Shown piece after piece: positions 203-13,711 of a DNA stretch of 64,000 nucleotides. This DNA comes from Pilasporangium apinafurcum (Eukaryota; Oomycota; Peronosporomycetes; Pythiales; Pythiaceae). Location: assembly GCA_001600495.1 (NCBI GenBank), contig BCKE01000012.1, forward strand, positions 651,445-715,444. The letters are read 5' to 3'. The position numbers and the translations under genes are program-made. The stretch's first letter is position 1. Every line of letters starts with the position of its first letter. Under the pieces are notes generated by a model. The model had not been told where the DNA came from, did no database searches, and was given only the letters and a program-made list of their open reading frames with translations.

Positions 203-2447
203 AATTGATCGACTGGTAATACGAAGACAAGAATGGAGAGCAAAGAGAGAGGGAGGAAATGCAGGGGGCTGTGGTTTGTTACTCATCGTTGCGATATTAC
301 CACCTGGTTTCGGACAGCGAACCACTCACTTCATACATGGAGCAAGGGAAAGACCAGCGAGTTCTCTATGCTACCTGCATCAGACGAACAGCAAATCTAA
401 CAGAATGTGTCACCAGTCGACTGATTGACAGCTGGTTTGGGAGAAGGTAACGCAAAAGGTGGGCACCCAAAAAATAAAAAATAGAGAAATTTTCAGCAAA
501 ATAACGTTTTTATAAAAATATTTTCAGTAATTTATTTCTTTTTCTTATATAAATGCCCAGACAAACCAATAGTCGAGTTTTTCACTGCAACGATCCTGTT
601 CATTCCTTCGCTTGAACCTCAAAGAAAAGCCTTCCACCAAATATCACTAGCAATAGGAAATGGCTATCGTATGTTTTACTACAACACAGAGAGAACAACG
701 CCATATCTGCTGTCTCAGTTACGGAGTATGGTGACGTTGCTATTACTTGAATCTTAGCCTTGTGCACCCAAACAAACGGTATTTGTGCAATAATAGCAAT
801 TTGCGTGGACAAAAGCCTGTACTATAAATCCTGCCTCTCTCATTGGTATCGTCCATGGTGGTGGCAGTATACCCAATCTGATTATATCATTCATAATAGC
901 TCATACAATGAAAATGATAATGGTTAAGATCGAACTGATTCTTGATGTCTTCGTACATTTATCATCTCTTCGTCTCCTGCGAGAAAGTTCCATTCTAGAA
1001 AAAAATGATCTATACGGTAAGAGCGATGATCGAATCGCTTGTTTTCCTGGCTGGCTAGATAACTCTCTCCATCTGCCTCAAGAAAAAGTACAACTTTGCG
1101 ATGATAACACGATTATTCACACACAATCAAGGTTATGACTCACAAATTTTGGATTGCTGTAGCGTCAACTTTGACGCAAACCGCACTTGGCGGCTTAGAA
1201 GAAAACACTATTTGATCAGGTAAATTCCTCAATGAATAGAATTATCTATTTCTTCTTTATCTCTTCATGTAGTTTATAGACGACACCCATACAACTTAAA
1301 TTCAGTTATGGTTTTGATATTGTTATGTCGTGGATTGCAATACATGCCAGCTCAGTTTCTGCTCATTGGTAAACTAATCAGTCACCTTTGGCCATCTTTG
1401 CCTGGACTTGGAGTAAGATAAGTGTTGCCAGAAAACATCCTTATGAATCAACTACCCAGATGGTCTTCGAAGATCGCCATCATATACCGGAAAGTTCAGT
1501 GCTGCTTTGACAACGATGGGTTTCATTTATAGAAAATGGCGCAAGTATCATCCTGAATAACACGATGCGCGATTCACATTCATCACCAATACTATTATAG
1601 GATGATGAAACACAGTCCATTTCTACCATGTTGGTTCACAAAGAGTAGCAAACGCATAGAGATTTGAGATTGTGTACCAGCCGATAGGGCGGAAGGCAAT
1701 CAGTGATCAACTGTGGATGAATAGATGGGATGGGAAACTCATGGGAACAACTGCTAGTTTGTTTAGACAGAGCCGATTGGCAAGATGTAGTAATCCAACA
1801 AATGTTACTCAAAATGCACGTGAGATGTGCCACAAAGCTTTACTGACAGAAAAAAAATAAACGGCAACAAGATGCGTGAGTTCTTGATCGCAATTCGTTG
1901 TGACCAGCTGTTTCAGCAGAAAATATGACTGTACATATCGACCATTCTCTAGCAACCCTCAATCAAGTGGCGTCGCCAAAACGTTGTACAATGTTAATAA
2001 ATCTGACCCATCAGAATAACTTCTCGTCGTTTTGCGTACGCAGAAATCCTCTCTAGTGACGACTCCATGTGTATCGCAAGTCGCTCAATCACAATTTTTT
2101 GGGGGGGAAGTATCATACCTGGGACAGTGTCATTTAAATAACCTCCTAGTGTCAAATTGGTTAAGTAACTACCATTCGTACTTAAAAAGGCATTTTTAGT
2201 ATTTTATTGGGTACGATAGGGTATAATTTTTGATGGGTCGGATTTCACATACCCAATAGGGCTCGGAGTGCTTTACCCTCAAGAGATAGATACCCGACCC
2301 AATATCATATTATTGTGTCTATTGCTGTGCTTTCATTGAATGGGCGAACGAATGAGGGGCGCTGCTAGATCAAATAACAACGACAGCGCCAACGCGATCC
2401 TCCTGCCAGTTAGATCACTAAGCACTACTCTCTCTCTCTTTGCGAAA
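203..2447. other. Intergenic, no gene recognised
   Basis: About 2.2 kb of A/T-rich DNA. The longest open frame (76 codons near 908-1138, +) has no recognisable motif. A G run lies at 2101-2107. Between about 2200 and 2310 are several short copies of ACCCAAT or GGGTA in both orientations, which may be worn repeat debris. The 5' leader of the U2AF gene probably lies at the right end: TTTCATT at 2330-2336 resembles an initiator. Confidence 0.5.
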
Positions 2448-5065
2448 ATGGGAGGTGGTCGACGGGAAAGTGAGGACACCAAGATGCGCAGCGACAACAC
2501 GCCCATGAGCGATGAGGATGAGGAAACCATTCGTGCGAAGTTGCGTGAATCTGGGTGGGAAAAGAAGAACCGCAAAGGCAGTTCCACCAAACCAGGAGCC
2601 AACGAGACTGATACTAGTAGTAGTTTAACGAATGGCAAGGCAAAGGGAGACGAATACGAAACAAAGAAAAAGGATCGTCACGATAACGATGATGGAGACG
2701 GCGATAGAAACGACGATGACAGGAAAGACAGTGATCGCCATCGTGACACGGGGCGGAAGAGCAGCAGGAGTGATGGTCGCAGCAGTCGCAGCCATCGATC
2801 TCGATCCCGCCGTCGGGATCGAGATCGGCGCAGCAGCCGCAATAGCTCTCGACGCAGCAGCAAATTATCGTCGTCTAGCCGCCGGCGATCATCCCGATCC
2901 CGATCCCGATCACGGTCACCATCTGAATCTCGCTCACGATCCCGATCGGTTTCCGTAACCAAATCCAGCAGCAAGCGATCGAGCTCCTCCCGCAAACGAC
3001 GCGCCTCAGTATCGAAATCACGTTCGCGGTCGATGTCCAAAGACAAGAAGCAGAGAAAAAAGGAAGAATTGAAGCAAGAGGAAGAAGCGGACAAGAATGC
3101 CAAGCAAGAGCAGAGCGAAGAGAAGTCAAAAACTAACAAAGATGAGCAGCAGCAGCGCCGTGATGGAGACGATGACAGCAAGGCACATCGTAGCAAGGAC
3201 AAGAACGACGACAATGAAGAAGAAACAGACAAGAAAGATAAAGATTCGCACCGCAAAAGCAGTCGAAAAAGCAGTCGACGGTCGTCGCCTCGATCACGCT
3301 CACGATCGTCGCGCCGTCGACGCCATCGTTCGCGGTCAAGATCACTCTCGGTGTCACGCAGTAGACGACGTCGTGGGTCATCGCGATCTCGATCGCGGTC
3401 CCGAGACAGTCGGCGCAGCCATCGGGATCGAGACCGGGACCGAGACCGCCGTCGCCGTGGACGCAGCCGTAGTCGTAGCCCCAGCTATAGCTACTCGCGC
3501 AGCAGTCGCCGTCGTCGTTCGGCGTCGAAGGATAAACAGCAACGGCGTGACGCCAACAGCTCTCCAGAACCACACGATCATCCACCAGCAGCTGCTCCAG
3601 GACCAGTGGATCCTACGGCATCAGTAGTGAACCCGACAATCACGCAGTTGATGCAACAATATCCAACGATGAGTCTTCAAGACATCATCGCCAAGATGCA
3701 GGCGTCGAATGTGACGATGGCGGCTGCAGTGGCGATGAAACCTGCGCGTGAGCTTTACGTGGGCAACCTTCCCCCAAACGTGACTGCACCGCAATTGCAG
3801 GAGTTTTTGGGCACGATTATCCAACAAGTGGGCTTGTCCATTCAGCCAGGCAATCCGATTCTCAACACGTGGATCTCGACCGATGGCCATTTCGCGTTTT
3901 GTGAAATGCGATCGGTGGAGGAATGTAACTTGGCACTCTTATTGAATCAGCTTTCGTTATTGGGCCAACCGCTCAAGTTTGGACGACCGCGGAGCTTTAT
4001 GGGGCCACCACAACCGATGCCAGTTGTGTCATCTCGGACGCAAACCGCGTTGGTGAACCTCGGTTGCACTCCCAATCCTGCTTGGTTTGCCTCGCCTTCT
4101 CTGGGCAGTGCATCGACTGGTGTTGGGGCTGCGTTAGCGTCGTCAACATTGGGGATGGCTGCTGGTGGCGTTGGAACGGTGGGTAATGTAGCGACATCTA
4201 TGTCTGCAAGTGCACTATTAGGATCACAGCTTGCTGCTGATGCGCTCTCGAATCGACTTATCATGATGAACATCCCAGTTGTACTTGAGGAAGAGCAAGT
4301 GACAGAACTCGTGCAGCCATTTGGCGAATTAAAGAGTTTCTCGCTGGTGAAAGACAGTGTGACTGGCGCGTCTACTGGAAGTGCACTGTTTGAATATAAA
4401 GATGATAGCGTCGCTGAGGAGGCTATGAAAGGTTTGAATGGATTGGATATCGGTGGAATTGCATTAACTGTGCGTCGGGCACCACGAGATGCAGTGATTC
4501 CTGGTGCTCTACCTCCAGCTGTTCCTGCTGCAAAAGTTGATGAAACCAGCGCCGTTGTCAAGATGGTACGTGTCATTGTGTCTTTTTGCCAGACAATCAG
4601 ATTTTCTCAAGTATTGCCTTTTGTATGTATGTAGGCAAACATGGTCACGATAGAGGAACTTAAAGACGATGAAGAGTATGCCGACTTAGCTGAAGATGTG
4701 GAAGAAGAATGTAAGCGCTTTGGAACTGTTGTGGCTATGGAAATTCCACGCCCAAAGGTATGAATTATATCATGTTTGTTTGATTTCATTTACATTGTCT
4801 CACTTTTGGTTACAAATTGATCGTAGGATGGAGAGGAAGTTCCTGGTGTTGGTAGCATTTTCGTTCGCTTCCAGAATACGTTGGAAGCCTCTGCTTCCTT
4901 GAAGGTTCGTTACTCTTGTTTATATGTTTCTTTGATTGATTTCGTTATCCATGAACTAACTCTTCGGATATCTCGCAGGCATTGAGCGGTCGCAAATTTG
5001 GAGGGAAGATTGTGCAAGTGACCTTCTACCCTGTTGACAAGTTTGAACGGAAGGACTTCAACTGA
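2448..5065 (+). CDS. U2AF2: U2 snRNP auxiliary factor large subunit (U2AF65-like)
   Basis: Binds the polypyrimidine tract and helps recruit U2 snRNP during pre-mRNA splicing in the nucleus. Exons: 2448..4565, 4635..4757, 4827..4904, 4979..5065 (801 aa). All introns are GT-AG and 69-74 nt. Order: acidic N terminus; a very long RS domain (residues about 60-395, dense SR/RD dipeptides); RRM1 from about 432 (LYVGNLPPN); RRM2 from about 603 (LIMMNIPVV); C-terminal UHM-type RRM from about 704, encoded by the three small exons and ending in FVRFQNTLEAS...FYPVDKF. This matches U2AF65, but the RS region is several times longer than in animal U2AF65 (about 475 aa in total). I chose the ATG at 2448, which follows a pyrimidine-rich leader (GCGAAAATGG context). 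An in-frame ATG at 2340 would add 36 residues but lies almost on the likely transcription start. Confidence 0.93.
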
Positions 5066-5846: not shown

Positions 5847-8800
5847 TTACAGAAATCTTTCAACGTCGTTAGAAGCATCAATGGTTTCGTGTGTGGCCAT
5901 GTGCTCGGTGGTTGGAGGTTCTGAGACTACTCGTTTCGAAATGCGGTGGTAGTATCGATACTCTTGCTGTCCGTAGTCATAAAACGATTCCCACAAGCAG
6001 GTCCCATTTTCATCATAGTTCTGCTCACGATAGAGCATCGAGTGCGTGTTATGATCGATTGTATCATCAGCCACTGCGTTCTTGTTTTCCTCCGATATGA
6101 TGCTGCTGTTAGCGTACGTGTCTTCAGCGACTACCAGGTCATCCCACTTGCCTGTTGTGACTGGTACATACTGAGCGATTTGCCAGAGAGTTTCCTGGTA
6201 GCTCTCGGTCGGGATCATGTTGACAAAATCATAACCACGCACTAGGTCTTGCTGGATCTCAGATGGCCAAATCGAAGGGAAGTCTCCGTCGCCATAATCG
6301 CGACGGATGCCGTAGAAATCAAAGAGTCGCCGCTTGAGATGCAGCTGCCGTTTCCCATGCCCATGCACTACGTCATCGCACTATGGAGAAAAAAAATTAT
6401 TCCCATCAGCATCAAATATCGAGAAACGGTCGATATGAAATGGGAATGGAAAGCTAAAAAGAGCCGAACCTCATTGCAGAAGAACTCTGAGCAAGTCGAA
6501 CACTCGACGCTTGCACTTTGTGGAGTCTCTGCTCAACGAAGGACATCAATTAGTACGAGTGCGCATCGAAAACACAAAACAATAAAGATGCAGAGCAAAG
6601 ATACGCACCGCATTGATCGCATTTCGGTCGACTCGTCAACATCAGCAATTCACGCGGCATTCGCCATCGGATCTCTCCATTGACCTGATTCTGAGATGAA
6701 ACCATGAGTCACATGCCACGAAATGAGTTGGAGAGTAAGAAGCAAGACAGATAGATATGCAATACGTACAAAGTAAAAGGGTGCACCGTATCCCTTGCCG
6801 TGGTGATTGTATGCATCGACAAGTTGCTTCCAACGTGTTCGCTTTGCTGCGCGCACGCGTTCCACCTCCCGCTTTGCCTCCAACTGTCGCCAATGTGATT
6901 GTACCAGTGTCGCCGCCCATACTTCCATATCGACAGCGTTTTGCTGCAGATCCAGCAGCTCCATCATGACCTGCTGCGCGCGTTGACGCAAGAGAAACCG
7001 ACGGAACGTGCGCTGTAAATGAATCGCGGCCCGCAGTTGGCGTTCCTCGCGCAGACGTCGCCCCTCACGGAGCACCGCGACACCAATTCGATCTTTGCGC
7101 CCACGCCACTGTTTCTGGATTACTCGCGCAGCGCGTTGACAATCTCGTTGGTAGTTTGCCATCTGAAGCATTCGCACTGTGTCACGACCTTTCTTGGCGC
7201 GATATATTTTTTGCAATTTCGTGGCTGCACGTTCACGCTCACGGATCGCTTCTCGTCGTTCTTCTGCGATTCTACAAGCGCGCTTTCGTCGGAATTGTGC
7301 TTGCAGTTGGGTCGCGCGACGAGATTGCAACTCCAATTCCAGATTCTTTTGTCGCTCCAGCGCTTTCGCCTTTTTACGATCGGCTCGTCCACGATAGATG
7401 GTCTGAATCCGCAAGGAAGCTTCACGTTCCTCCTTTTCACGGATTTGCCGCTGTATTCTCTGTAAGTTAACACGTTTACGGTCGGCAATTCCCCTGAAAC
7501 GACGTTGCAGTTGAATGGCTGCCTGGGTCTCACGTTGATATTGCTTCTTTTTGGCTGCGAAAATGAGTCTCGCGATTTTTGCGGTGCGTTTCGCGCGGTA
7601 ACGGCGCTGCACTACTAGCACATATTTCTCAAGCTGCCTCGAGATGATCGCTTGCATTTGCTTCTGTGCGCGTCGTGCCTGGCAGGTTTCACGATATCGT
7701 CGTTGGATCTTGATGGCTGACTTTTCTAGGCCAGAGCGCATGAGCTTCTTGATCATCGCCTCTCGTCGAGCTTTCCGTCCACGCCACATGCTTTGTAGTC
7801 GTCGCGCCACATGCATACGCATTGTCTCTTCTTTCCGCACCAACGCGAGCCTCCGGGCAATCCTAGAGCGGTATAGATTCTGTACGAAATATCAATTTGT
7901 TTTGCACATGGAACACAGCGTAGCATAGTCGGTAAGCGACCGCAATAATGAAGAGTGTAAGCATTGAATGTAATGGATCTCACTTGGATTTTGACGGCAG
8001 CCACCCATAGCGTGCACATCTCCTCCACAAAGCGACGGTCTTTGGCGCGATGCATAGGAAAGATGCCCATTTCCGCTGAGCTCGATTGTGCTGCGTTGCC
8101 AACAGGAACGCGAAGAACACCGAACGGCCACGAACTGCTCAGGCTTTGCAAAACGCGATGGGAAACCCTACAGCCCTGCTCAAGGCAACATCATTGTCAG
8201 AAATATGATTAAGTAGTAAATACACAGGGAATATCTAAACACTGACATGAACACTGAGAGTGAGTAGTAATGGACACGCAAATGCAATTCGGGCGATGGA
8301 ATCCTGCGTGATGAGTGCACAGCCCGCGAGGTACAAGTGCACAAGTGCAGGATGTTGAAAACCATCGACCAGTGCACTCACGCCAGTATCTGAGATCATC
8401 CGACACCCAGAAAAATCAAGCACTTCAAACTGATCCGCATGGACGGCTAAATGGCGCAGTCCATTATCGCTCACTTTGTCGCATTGAGCAACATAGAGCT
8501 CCTTCAGCGATGGACAGCATTCACTTATTGCTCCCAGCATGGCATTGTCGCAGAGCAACACACCCGAGAGATTGAGCGATCGCAAATGTGCGCATCCGCG
8601 CAGCAGCGCCTTGACTGCCGGTAAGGTGATCTTTGGACATGCTTTCAAATTTACCTTCTGGAGAGATTGGCAACTCGCGCCTATAGCAACTAGAGAGCGT
8701 TCAACGAGCTGAAAGCAGCCGCTCAAGTTGAGGTCTAATAACTCTACAAACAAAACTTATCAGCTTAATGAACAGTGACACTGGAGATATCGTGTTGCAA

Positions 8801-10415
8801 GCTAAGATCTTACTTTTACAGCCTTGAGCGACAGCTCGTAGTCCTTCCAACCCAAAATCTCGATTGCTTCCATCAGATACAAGATAGAGATTGCTCACAT
8901 GCAAAACCTCCAGCTCTGGACATCCATTGGATAGCAGTCGCAGACCCACATCGGAAACACTCTTGACATTCGAGAGTCGTATAGATTTGAGATGTGGGCA
9001 ATGCTCACTCAACCCACGAAGAGAGACGTCTGTAACGTAGAAAACATTGGTGATATCGAGATGCTCAAGCTCGTGACACCCATCGGCGATCCATTTGATG
9101 CCCCCGTCGGTCAGGAAGTTGCAGCCGGCAAGATTAATGGATTTCAATCTGGTACAGTGCTCTCCAAGCGCTGCACACGCTGTGTCAGTGATTTTTTCAC
9201 TGTATTGACTGCGGTTCAAGGCGACTCTCTCCAACTGTAGACACTTTTGCGCCAAAGATACAATTCCACTGTCTGACACTTGCGTGCAATCGCTCAGGAT
9301 GATTGTCCGGAGACTTTGACACTGATTGGAGAGTGTCTTAAGCAGATTATCGGTGATTTGTAGGCAGCGGGCGACATTGAGATGCTGCAGCTTCGTAAAG
9401 GCGTAAATGCACCGCATCAACACCCACTCACCGATTTGTGCGCACTCTACGACTGCTAAGTCGGTGAGCTGCTGGCAATGATCACCGATGGCACTGAGCC
9501 CAGCCCCCTGGACATTTCTGCAGTTGCTGATGTTCAAGCGAGTGAGTGACCTACAGTGTTGTGCCAATGTCCGAAGACCTACGTCTGTAATCTGCACAGC
9601 GTTTGCGATTTCGAGCACTTGCAAAGCAGGCACGCTCTCGGCAACAGCCACCAAGCCAACGTCTGTGATTGACTCGGCACCATTCATAATAAGGCTTTTC
9701 GTTAGTTCTGCGTCATCGTTGACTTGCAGTCGTCTGCCTCCTGCTGATGACGGCGCTGTCGACGGGGTCGATGTCGGTCCCAGCAACTGCTTTTGCCTCA
9801 ATTGGGTGATCCGCTTGTTGCGTGCAGCAATCCGAAATAGAGTCGTGTCAGAGACAATAACAGTCCATTTGCTGATATTGATGTGCGCAGAATGAGTAAA
9901 CTGCGATGGAAGCTCTGTCGGGTTTTGCGCGACTCCCTTACGAGTTCCCCGCTCAATCGACGTAGTAAAGAACGCCAAATTATTGAGGATTGCTGGTCTG
10001 TAGAATATGCAATCAAAGATAAGCATGCACGAACAATTTGCTCAAATTTCTACATTATGTACGTTGAGAAGGCTTACCGAGTATCATGCGAGAAGGCTAT
10101 AGGTTGATGCTGACCGTTATCATTTTGATTCGAAGTAATGGGGGAGCGTACTGGTCCAAGTGGCACATGGTTGGTCTTCAAAGAGTGATTTAATCCACCA
10201 GGATTAATCGATACGTTATTACCTCCACCAGCACGCTCTTGTTCTGACCGCTTTGGTTCTGAAAGCACGGCTAGCTTCACCGTACTCGTTGGATTGAGCT
10301 TCTTGCTGATGTTGCTGCGTGACTTTGTGGGAGGTTTAAAAGTCTCGACTGCATTTACTGACAATGGTTCTGGCAGGACAGGAATGCGAGACCTCGCCAA
10401 TCTGGGATACGACAT
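5847..10415 (-). CDS. LRR (AMN1-like) - multi-IQ - WW - B-box - WW protein
   Basis: One eight-exon gene of 1,331 aa: complement of 10078..10415, 8814..9997, 8247..8743, 7984..8175, 6770..7879, 6609..6690, 6470..6528, 5847..6380. Every junction keeps frame and falls inside a recognisable repeat or domain, which is why I treat it as one gene. Domains: a disordered N terminus; about 15 cysteine-containing leucine-rich repeats (residues about 220-690) of the AMN1/F-box-LRR type; about 11 IQ motifs (about 725-1075; e.g. IQRRYRE, IQKQWRGRKDR) that should bind calmodulin or EF-hand light chains; a WW domain (W...FYFNQVNGEIRWRMP, split by an intron); a B-box zinc finger (CDQC...CSTC...CNEC...H); and a second, degenerate WW (W...YRYYH...EPP, second Trp replaced by Val). 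No F-box was seen. A scaffold in calcium or ciliary signalling is possible, but function is inferred from domains only. Confidence 0.87.
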
Positions 10416-10841: not shown

Positions 10842-13625
10842 TTATGGTACATTACAAGCACTGCGCGGAACGGAACGTGATGGCGCCGATTTTGGACGTG
10901 AACTGGGAAGCAACGCCATTGACGGTTGCAAACGAGCGCCGCTATCTCCTTCGCTTTGTTGAGCCACAAGTTGATTCCAATTATTACTTGTTTGTGGCAA
11001 ATATGCTGGATCAGTATCTTCACGGAGAGCATGAGCCAGTGCCTTTCGATTTTGCGAACTGAGTTTCATCAGCGCTCCTTGTTGACGCGGATAAAGGTGT
11101 GGATGCCGCGTCTTCCCCACCTGGTGGATTATCTCGCTCTTGATACGTGAGGCTGATCCGGAAGGAGCAGTTGCAGGTCGTTTCACCGGAGTTGGAAACG
11201 TAAACAAGCGCGTTTGACGCCATAGAGTTGTACTGCAACATCGAATTGGACGATTCACTGTCTTCGAAGTCTTAACATGAGATGCCATCCTCACACAGTC
11301 CTCTCCTACATCCTTTTCTGTTGTATTACAGGAGTTGACTACAACAGCGCTGGCTGTATGTGGACGCAGCTTCTGTCCGCATTCAGTCCTAGAATTAGTA
11401 ATCATCTGCGCGTCTTGTTGAACTTGGCACACAAGTTGCAGTGTCTTTGCTAGCGAAGAAGAGGTATCCAATGGAGGTTTTCGTCGTCGCACTGCGGCTT
11501 CGTGCTCAATTCGCTTTTGTTTCACGATTTCTACAACGCAAGCCCGCCGTTTCTCATCGTCCTTCACAAAAGATTCGTATTTCTCCATCAACTGCGCATA
11601 CAACATCGGATGATTGGCTTCAAGAGCGTCTAAGTGCTTCTGTGAACCAGTTGTAAGCACGACTGAATGACCTTCTCCAGCCGCGATTTGTGTGACATTC
11701 AGACCCACTGTGGATGCCACAAGGTGAGGAATCGTATAGATTTGTGGGAATGATCCCACACCGCATTGCCCCAATTCATCACTTCCCCACGCAAACACTC
11801 GTGCGTCTTGCGTCAGAGCCATAGAATGCAGTTTTCCCGCATCGATAGCGCATATCACCAGTTGTGCATCCGCAGCGAAATATGAAATTTTTGTCGGCAC
11901 CATGCGACTACAGCAATCGCCTAAACCAAGTTGACCGTTGACATTCCATCCAAAGCTATATACTGAATGACATTCTGTTAGTACAAGCGTATGGGCTGCT
12001 CCGCATGCTACATATGTACACAATTTGTTGTTGTCACCCTTGTTACACTTGAAATCGACTGGGGCAAAGTAGGACGAGTATTCGCCCCCTTTACAGGGTC
12101 GCCCGAGCCGCCCATGCTCTCCCAAACCACAAGTAAGCAATTTGCCGTTTAGTAAGATAATTGCAGTGTGCATCTCACCACAGGAAATCTTGGCGACGCC
12201 CATCCGTTTCAAGGAGAGAATTTCCATAGGCATTCCAACAGAATCAAACGATTGATCTTGTGTGTTTCGACCGTGGCCGAGTGCACCACACCGCCCGTAC
12301 CCCCACGAAAACACATCTCCATCTTCTGCCAATGCCACAGTATGTCTCGCTCCACATGCCACATGCACTATGCGTTTATGCAACAGTGACGTTATCACCC
12401 GTGGTGTTCGTATACTGTAATTATTGCCATGGCCCAGACGGCCATCCTTCCCTTCACCCCATGACAAGAGATATCCTTGCTCCGTAATGGCGACGATATG
12501 TGCGTCTCCGCACGCAACATCCACAAGCATATTACTCAGCGCAGCACATGCACCCTGATCACGCGCTAAATCATCATCGGCATCGACTGGGCCGCCATTA
12601 CTCCCCAAATCCTTCGCTTCAGAGGAATAATCGACTTCCATTTTTCCTAATGTGACAACGCTACCAGTCTTGTAGAGTAGCACTGTGTGATTTGCGCGAC
12701 AGACAACTTTGATCAACGCATTTCCATCTTTCGGCATACCAAATAACTCCGGTTGTTCTTGAACACTATCAACGCCATCACTTGGTGCCACTGCATCTGT
12801 GACTGCTGTCCCTGAGACGAGGTTTCGTCGCGAAAACTTTTTTCGCACTATTGCAGCGTGTGTTGCGGAATTCGCTGCTTCTACAGCGGCCATAGCAGCA
12901 GCTGTTGCCAACGGAGTTGCCGAGTGTTGCGCTATTAGTGAAGATTTCGCAACAAGTCCTCCTATTTGCCGCTCTGAGCCCAAATCAATCTGTGTGAAAT
13001 CATGGGAGTTTTGCCACGTAGAAGATACCGGTTTGCCCAATTGCCGAGTGGTAGAAACAGGATTTCCCGTTGCAAATACGCAACAGCCATCACGTCCATT
13101 AATCTGTACCATCAGTGTTGGCGGCAGAAAGATCATCCGACTGCCATTAAAACGTGTGTCCATGCTACTACTGAAATGCTCTATAATTTGCATCTTTTTG
13201 CGCTCATCCTTGGAGCTATCTTCGTGAATGCTACTGACCGCCGAGACCCGAAAGAATTGCGGTTCCATCCAATTTTCCGGTGTAAAAATCTGCAATGATG
13301 GTGAGACACGAATACTGGTTGAGATGTTTCCAGGTGCAATGGTTACTGGATGATCCGGTGGACATGAGAGAACTGCAGAGTAAAATGATGCACATCCTTT
13401 AACTGTTACGTGCAGCTTTGAACACGAAAAAATCACACTCGGACGCGCTCTAGCTCCTGCGAACCCGCCACATATACCTTGACGGCGGATAGTGGGATTC
13501 GATGATGAAGAAGCAGGACGGGCTCGTGGGACCCCATTCACCATGACGATGGTGCTCAATGCCAACAGCAGGCACCTCGCTGAAAAATACAGTCTTTGAC
13601 ATGAAGATATTAACGATATTTTCAT
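10842..13625 (-). CDS. RCC1-repeat (beta-propeller) protein
   Basis: Single open frame of 927 aa without introns. The middle part (residues about 300-640) carries RCC1 repeats with the usual signature V.CG..H...L...G.V.SWG.G..GRLGHG (seen as CGDAHIVAI, CGARHTVAL, CGEMHTAII, CGAAHTLVL, AAGEGHSVVL). Such repeats form a seven-bladed propeller used for guanine-nucleotide exchange or protein scaffolding. The C-terminal 250 residues are basic and disordered with a coiled stretch (EKYESFVKDDEKRRA). The start at 13625 gives a hydrophobic N terminus (CLLLALSTIVMV) that could be a signal peptide or anchor; an internal ATG at 13544 would remove it and is also credible. The upstream gene ends only 86 bp away. 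The true exchange substrate, if any, is unknown. Confidence 0.85.
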   Translation of the reverse strand: MKISLISSCQRLYFSARCLLLALSTIVMVNGVPRARPASSSSNPTIRRQGICGGFAGARARPSVIFSCSKLHVTVKGCASFYSAVLSCPPDHPVTIAPGNISTSIRVSPSLQIFTPENWMEPQFFRVSAVSSIHEDSSKDERKKMQIIEHFSSSMDTRFNGSRMIFLPPTLMVQINGRDGCCVFATGNPVSTTRQLGKPVSSTWQNSHDFTQIDLGSERQIGGLVAKSSLIAQHSATPLATAAAMAAVEAANSATHAAIVRKKFSRRNLVSGTAVTDAVAPSDGVDSVQEQPELFGMPKDGNALIKVVCRANHTVLLYKTGSVVTLGKMEVDYSSEAKDLGSNGGPVDADDDLARDQGACAALSNMLVDVACGDAHIVAITEQGYLLSWGEGKDGRLGHGNNYSIRTPRVITSLLHKRIVHVACGARHTVALAEDGDVFSWGYGRCGALGHGRNTQDQSFDSVGMPMEILSLKRMGVAKISCGEMHTAIILLNGKLLTCGLGEHGRLGRPCKGGEYSSYFAPVDFKCNKGDNNKLCTYVACGAAHTLVLTECHSVYSFGWNVNGQLGLGDCCSRMVPTKISYFAADAQLVICAIDAGKLHSMALTQDARVFAWGSDELGQCGVGSFPQIYTIPHLVASTVGLNVTQIAAGEGHSVVLTTGSQKHLDALEANHPMLYAQLMEKYESFVKDDEKRRACVVEIVKQKRIEHEAAVRRRKPPLDTSSSLAKTLQLVCQVQQDAQMITNSRTECGQKLRPHTASAVVVNSCNTTEKDVGEDCVRMASHVKTSKTVNRPIRCCSTTLWRQTRLFTFPTPVKRPATAPSGSASRIKSEIIHQVGKTRHPHLYPRQQGALMKLSSQNRKALAHALREDTDPAYLPQTSNNWNQLVAQQSEGDSGARLQPSMALLPSSRPKSAPSRSVPRSACNVP

Positions 13626-13711
13626 GCGCTATTTTTGTACTTTCCTTTTTCAATTTGATGCTTTTGTTTTGGGTCAAAATTACTTCATCTTCATCACTTC
13701 ACTCATTGTGT

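Follow-up and report, generated by a model that had tools for sequence, protein, structure and literature searches.

The window examined here is a stretch of 64,000 nt from Pilasporangium apinafurcum (assembly GCA_001600495.1, contig BCKE01000012.1, positions 651,445 to 715,444 of the forward strand), and all positions are given in window coordinates. The minus strand between 10415 and 5847 carries eight exons that can be spliced into one continuous frame, ATG to stop codon, for a single protein of about 1331 residues. An earlier note on this DNA had described eight exons that join in phase, and trials of splice combinations bear this out. Eight combinations closed in frame; they differ at three acceptors only and yield products of 1329 to 1333 residues. 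In the preferred model of 1331 residues, exons 4 and 7 start at 8175 and 6528 (CAG acceptors) and exon 6 starts at 6690, the latter being preferred because it fits a relative in the same genome, designated C4. Introns are of the GT..AG type and 68 to 104 bases long when tabulated with exon 4 starting at 8178. The alignment with C4 and the same-genome HMM, IQ-register and intron figures reported below were computed on a 1332-residue variant of the protein. The gene comprises the following features:

5847-10415, minus strand: whole coding region, eight exons, 1331 residues preferred (in-frame closure; full-length relative C4)
10078-10415, minus strand: exon 1, with the ATG and an N terminus without a Pfam match
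8814-9997, minus strand: exon 2, N-terminal linker and most leucine-rich repeats (LRRs), no F-box found (Pfam; AF2 solenoid; Foldseek match to FBXL2/FBXL17)
8247-8743, minus strand: exon 3, last LRRs (in-frame closure; Pfam)
7984-8175 (alternative start 8178), minus strand: exon 4, linker from LRRs to IQ motifs and start of IQ 1 (in-frame closure; C4 alignment)
6770-7879, minus strand: exon 5, encoding IQ motifs and the N-terminal half of WW 1 (in-frame closure; Pfam)
6609-6690, minus strand: exon 6, C-terminal half of WW 1 and start of the B-box (same-genome HMMs; flanking introns common to C4)
6470-6528 (alternative start 6531), minus strand: exon 7, middle of the B-box (same-genome HMM; flanking introns common to C4)
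5847-6380, minus strand: exon 8, end of the B-box, a conserved segment, a WW-like tail and the stop codon (in-frame closure; C4 alignment; poor AF2 model)

Upstream, the next open reading frame (ORF) lies on the minus strand at 10842-13628 and appears by eye to consist of RCC1-like repeats. The convergent neighbor on the plus strand (2340-5064) is SR-rich with RRM-like parts and resembles U2AF65 by eye.

The domain order of the window protein is FBXL-type LRRs, approximately 11 IQ motifs, a WW domain, a B-box, and a degenerate WW-like tail. The LRRs, the IQ array, the first WW domain and the B-box thus stand in the order and place that the earlier note had given them; the second WW domain that it had listed does not hold up (see below).

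Searches of the Pilasporangium genome with a C-terminal piece and with exon 5 recovered the full-length relative on contig C4, for which hand splicing gave a model of 1318 residues in eight exons. Four splice variants of C4 closed; one donor was then changed by eye, and both variants tried closed. The window protein and C4 are 28.9% identical over 1280 residues (blastp, E = 1.7e-160). The last three introns interrupt both genes at the same codon and in the same phase, whereas the other four differ. A single C4 ORF of 917 residues contains LRR_4 (5.1e-21) and IQ (3.8e-15) together, so that the join of LRRs to IQ motifs in C4 is independent of splicing. This bears on the claim that the locus is one gene, and on the alternative that two neighboring genes were wrongly joined near 8176-8246, a reading encouraged by the shortness of exon 4 and its ambiguous acceptor. 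Comparison with these same-genome loci makes two genes unlikely, and we regard a wrong join as scarcely credible and dropped it: the LRRs and IQ motifs of C4 share one ORF, C4 also aligns across the junction, and another locus, C8, carries LRR, IQ and WW within one ORF. Searches of virus and prokaryote contig collections with exon 8 and the C4 ORF returned no relatives, which says little because those collections hold virus and prokaryote sequences only.

The LRR head was recognized by Pfam as LRR_6 (3.2e-22) and LRR_4 (6.4e-21). Exon 2 folded alone with AF2 gave an LRR solenoid with a period of about 26 residues (mean pLDDT 65, residues 1-98 below 50). FBXL2 and FBXL17 ranked first when this model was submitted to Foldseek, with one Leishmania doublet chain at rank 47 amid many LRR folds in the best 50 matches, and FBXL2 was the best match of exon 2 in a sequence search of the PDB (6o60, E = 2.2e-43). 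By sequence and Foldseek, the LRRs, which the earlier note had called AMN1-type, are closest to FBXL2, FBXL17, COI1, TIR1 and SKP2. The window protein therefore has the FBXL-type LRR solenoid of F-box/LRR substrate receptors and shares LRR class and fold with FBXL2 and FBXL17, but differs from them in lacking a detectable F-box and in its added IQ array and WW/B-box tail. Pfam returned no F-box match before the LRRs up to E = 10. A loose F-box likeness seen by eye ahead of the LRRs in exon 2 was set aside, as Pfam was negative and the region was modelled without confidence.

The remaining domains are located as follows:

6860-7989, minus strand: array of 11 IQ motifs, crossing intron 4 (relaxed motif; same register in C4)
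6655-6832, minus strand: WW 1, spanning intron 5 (same-genome HMM; PRPF40A WW match)
6339-6621, minus strand: B-box of the form CxxC..CxxC..CxxC..H..H, spanning introns 6 and 7 (Pfam below cut-off; same-genome HMM)
6246-6320, minus strand: DFY..DY.DGDFPS.WPSEI.QD segment, the best conserved part of exon 8 (C4 alignment)
5913-6011, minus strand: degenerate WW-like repeat (aligned to a C4 WW; no HMM hit)

The proposed array of about 11 IQ motifs is present according to Pfam, HMM and motif counts. Pfam detected IQ in eight stretches (8.8e-08). A relaxed motif gave 11 matches and a stricter motif gave 10, eight of them in the register of the array. An HMM built from other IQ domains of the same genome found seven domains at E ≤ 0.01, compared to at most one in any of 200 shuffles (this shuffle control was done for the HMM and not for the relaxed motif); its whole-protein scores were poor (-1.0 bits for the window protein and -15.9 bits for C4). 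The intervals between successive IQ motifs are 29, 30, 32, 34, 34, 34, 30, 32, 34 and 38 residues. For each of the 11, C4 has a counterpart at the same offset, and C4 gives one extra motif match. Over an ungapped stretch of 340 residues, 89 positions are identical (26%), while the next best ungapped offset, with 56 of 340 identical, lies one 34-residue repeat away. Because MAFFT introduced a small number of short gaps that offset one another within the IQ array, the claim of a common register is one of no net shift between motifs; the LRRs and tail required more and longer gaps. The spacing differs in the C8 relative. The IQ spacing common to the window protein and C4 suggests a rod that may be constrained in length, and we infer that selection may have acted on the length or register of the IQ stretch. 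Conservation of the spacing at an overall identity of only 29% points to a function for which length or register matters.

WW 1 scored 11.0 bits with the same-genome WW HMM, compared to 5.1 bits for the best shuffle (341 scored of 500), and the best PDB match of the 118-residue C-terminal piece was the WW domain of PRPF40A (E = 0.0054). Pfam returned no WW match up to E = 10 anywhere in the window protein. The B-box is ANCHR-like by Pfam at 24.2 bits, under the 27-bit cut-off, and scored 27.4 bits with the same-genome HMM (best shuffle 6.3 bits, 398 scored of 500); these HMMs too were built from other domains of the Pilasporangium genome. A second WW domain was not found in the window protein by Pfam or by the same-genome HMM, and we therefore dropped it as a true WW. 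The WW-like repeat in its place can be aligned to one of the C4 WWs and lacks the second Trp; a very low-confidence AF2 model gives it three strands, and the model of exon 8 as a whole (pLDDT 34.7) is too poor for use. C4 itself has WW domains in two stretches by Pfam (1.5e-10) and, by the same-genome HMM, one before the B-box and three after it (10.0, 0.5, 15.5 and 12.6 bits). No Pfam family matches the segment at 6246-6320, which follows the B-box; within the genome it is most similar to C4, and a weaker match on C62 (34%) overlaps it in part. A Tudor-like reading of its DY.DGD part was abandoned for want of Pfam support.

When the genome was searched with the LRR exon, 28 places in 14 clusters were recovered. 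Six of the 14 clusters have same-strand Pfam IQ domains no more than 5 kb away, compared to 0.16 expected, and with the window gene added, IQ follows the LRRs in at least seven of the 14. All expected numbers assume random placement, and the genome IQ counts are lower bounds, as 150 of 317 candidates were scored and the window gene's own IQ motifs were missed. Pilasporangium thus has at least seven LRR-IQ loci, namely the window gene, C4 and five others, and the tails differ among loci, including a WW array and an Agenet/Tudor tail. LRR and IQ occur above Pfam cut-offs in one ORF at C4, C8, C18 and C11:24 kb. The C8 ORF (minus strand, L029:2147-6745) encodes 1532 residues with FBXL-type LRRs, IQ motifs and seven WW stretches (LRR_4 2.9e-18, IQ 1.5e-30, WW 1.2e-40). 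Two further loci are putative single genes: at C17 the LRRs stand mostly in a neighboring ORF, and at C11:434 kb the ORF with the LRRs has an IQ below the cut-off (15.4 bits), with more IQ motifs and MORN in the next ORF. Within one ORF on the minus strand, C18 (L030:2332-5274) has LRRs, IQ motifs and then Agenet/Tudor, a tail more usual in chromatin proteins.

WW domains co-occur with LRRs in two of the 14 clusters (0.15 expected) and B-boxes in none. The zero for B-boxes arises because the B-box list omits those split by introns in the window gene and C4; the B-box of the C67 gene is likewise missing from it, and none of the three enters the co-occurrence counts. WW domains are abundant in the genome, at 110 places; of the 73 WW clusters, 13 are accompanied by a same-strand IQ no more than 5 kb away, where 0.80 would be expected. 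Four of 19 B-box clusters lie near WW (0.19 expected) and five near IQ (0.21 expected). Combinations of IQ, WW and B-box without LRRs were found in one ORF at C11:683 kb and in two neighboring ORFs at C85. One ORF at C8:435 kb and another at C36 have WW and B-box with no IQ by hmmscan, although the genome IQ list places one IQ inside the former.

No named family with the LRR-IQ-WW-B-box set was found in the literature searched, a weak negative given that most subscription journals lay outside the search; to that extent, the claim of the earlier note that no such family has been named is supported. Among known systems, animal LRRIQ proteins combine LRRs of another class with IQ motifs and are not known to carry a WW or a B-box. 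The window protein likewise has LRR and IQ in one protein, and C4 has them in one ORF. IQGAP is a calmodulin-binding WW and IQ scaffold with CH and RasGAP domains. The window protein shares the WW (by same-genome HMM only) and IQ (by Pfam) but has an LRR head and a B-box instead of CH and RasGAP, neither of which was found by Pfam. In TRIM/RBCC proteins, a RING precedes the B-box. The window protein has the B-box, at the HMM and Pfam scores given above, and no RING before it by Pfam up to E = 10.

The nearest published combinations are TPPP-like multidomain proteins. According to the available part of PMC3498115, p25alpha proteins of flagellated stramenopiles carry B-box and IQ and one also WW, the proteins named being Ectocarpus CBN75312 and CBJ49059 and Phytophthora infestans XP_002905233. 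These share B-box and IQ with the window protein, and CBJ49059 shares WW too; in the part available they have p25alpha and no LRR listed, whereas the window protein has LRRs and, by Pfam, no p25alpha. Thus B-box with IQ, with or without WW, is already in print for stramenopiles in that source, and the LRR-headed version was not found in the literature searched. A further Pilasporangium ORF, at C10 on the plus strand (L023:671-6280), comprises p25alpha, IQ motifs and three B-box stretches, and resembles the stramenopile p25alpha proteins as described in the available part of PMC3498115.

The build of the gene is unusual, its individual parts are commonplace, and its function is one that we infer. 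The reading we prefer, with a confidence somewhat short of even, is that the protein is an intracellular scaffold predicted to carry calmodulin or centrin, with the microtubule or flagellar apparatus as its likeliest site. The LRR solenoid would grip one partner, the IQ stretch would form an extended, Ca2+-sensitive helix made rigid by bound calmodulin or centrin, and the WW and B-box would bind partners at the far end. From IQ 1 to IQ 11 there are 327 residues, which would measure about 49 nm if they formed one helix. A Ca2+ switch does not follow, as IQ is described as a Ca2+-independent binding site in the available part of PMC3498115. In favor of the scaffold are the presence of the domains in one gene, the FBXL-like LRRs, the kept IQ register, the differing tails, the flagellar genes of the genome, and the published findings on P. 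infestans centrins and a calmodulin antagonist (PMC5322657) and on stramenopile proteins that combine B-box and IQ (PMC3498115); we count against it that the PDB matches listed for the pieces tried include no axonemal chain, that exon 5 has no PDB match at E = 0.01, that the LRR, IQ and WW terms are absent from the main text of a P. infestans flagellar gene paper (PMC3471859), that spacing differs in C8, and that MAFFT places gaps in the IQ region.

The flagellar genes comprise homologs of radial spoke protein 3 (1.4e-81) and IFT46 (4.1e-94). Elicitins, a mark of oomycetes, were found at 50 places. Together with the register kept with C4, and with the C10 B-box/IQ gene whose p25alpha recalls the flagellated-stramenopile proteins in the available part of PMC3498115, the flagellar genes favor a narrower reading, in which an IQ rod of fixed length would act as a distance-setting ruler of the axoneme or basal body. 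We consider a ruler rather unlikely. Exon 5, which carries the IQ motifs, had no PDB match at E = 0.01, and the PDB matches listed for exon 5, exon 2, the 118-residue C-terminal piece and the C8 and C4 ORFs included no axonemal chain; the pieces tried matched FBXL, TIR1/COI1, SKP2, PRP40-type and other chains. In Foldseek, the Leishmania doublet chain reached only rank 47 of the best 50. Although the genome has flagellar genes, no link between the window gene and the flagellum was found. In a paper on P. infestans flagellar genes, the main text as available does not contain the terms leucine, LRR, IQ motif, IQ domain or WW domain (PMC3471859), and the available published text offered no flagellar promoter motif usable as a test.

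A general cytoplasmic or actin-side adaptor, resembling IQGAP in use and having no flagellar role, has in our view a small but real chance. The WW and IQ that IQGAP also has, and the frequent proximity of IQ to WW clusters in this genome (13 of 73), are consistent with an adaptor, but the CH and RasGAP domains of IQGAP are absent by Pfam. Quite unlikely, and offered as speculation, is a lineage-specific scaffold family that would combine an F-box-less FBXL-type LRR head, a fixed-length IQ rod loaded with calmodulin or centrin (about 49 nm if one helix) and exchangeable tails (WW-B-box-WW, WW array or Tudor), and that would serve as a ruler in the zoospore flagellar apparatus.

A ubiquitin-type role, which the earlier note had considered, is not supported, as Pfam found neither F-box nor RING and a B-box by itself does not make a ligase. 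The corresponding reading, a substrate receptor of a ubiquitin ligase in which substrate would be held by the LRRs, attachment to the ligase would be provided by the B-box or by an F-box that escaped detection, and calmodulin would act as a switch, is very doubtful: the kinship of the LRRs to FBXL2, FBXL17, COI1, TIR1 and SKP2 and the B-box agree with it, but F-box and RING are absent by Pfam up to E = 10, and the stretch of exon 2 before the LRRs is only loosely F-box-like by eye and was modelled without confidence.

These observations turn an odd domain list into a gene group with testable parts, in which the head and the IQ stretch are shared and the tails vary. As to the putative ligands in P. 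infestans, sporangia show a rise in three of four predicted centrins, but the level of the canonical calmodulin gene in hyphae exceeds that in sporangia more than 5-fold, which argues against a role in spores only (PMC5322657, available part). In the same part of that source, zoospore release in P. infestans is blocked by calcium inhibitors, including the calmodulin antagonist trifluoperazine, and new candidate receivers of that signal would therefore be useful.
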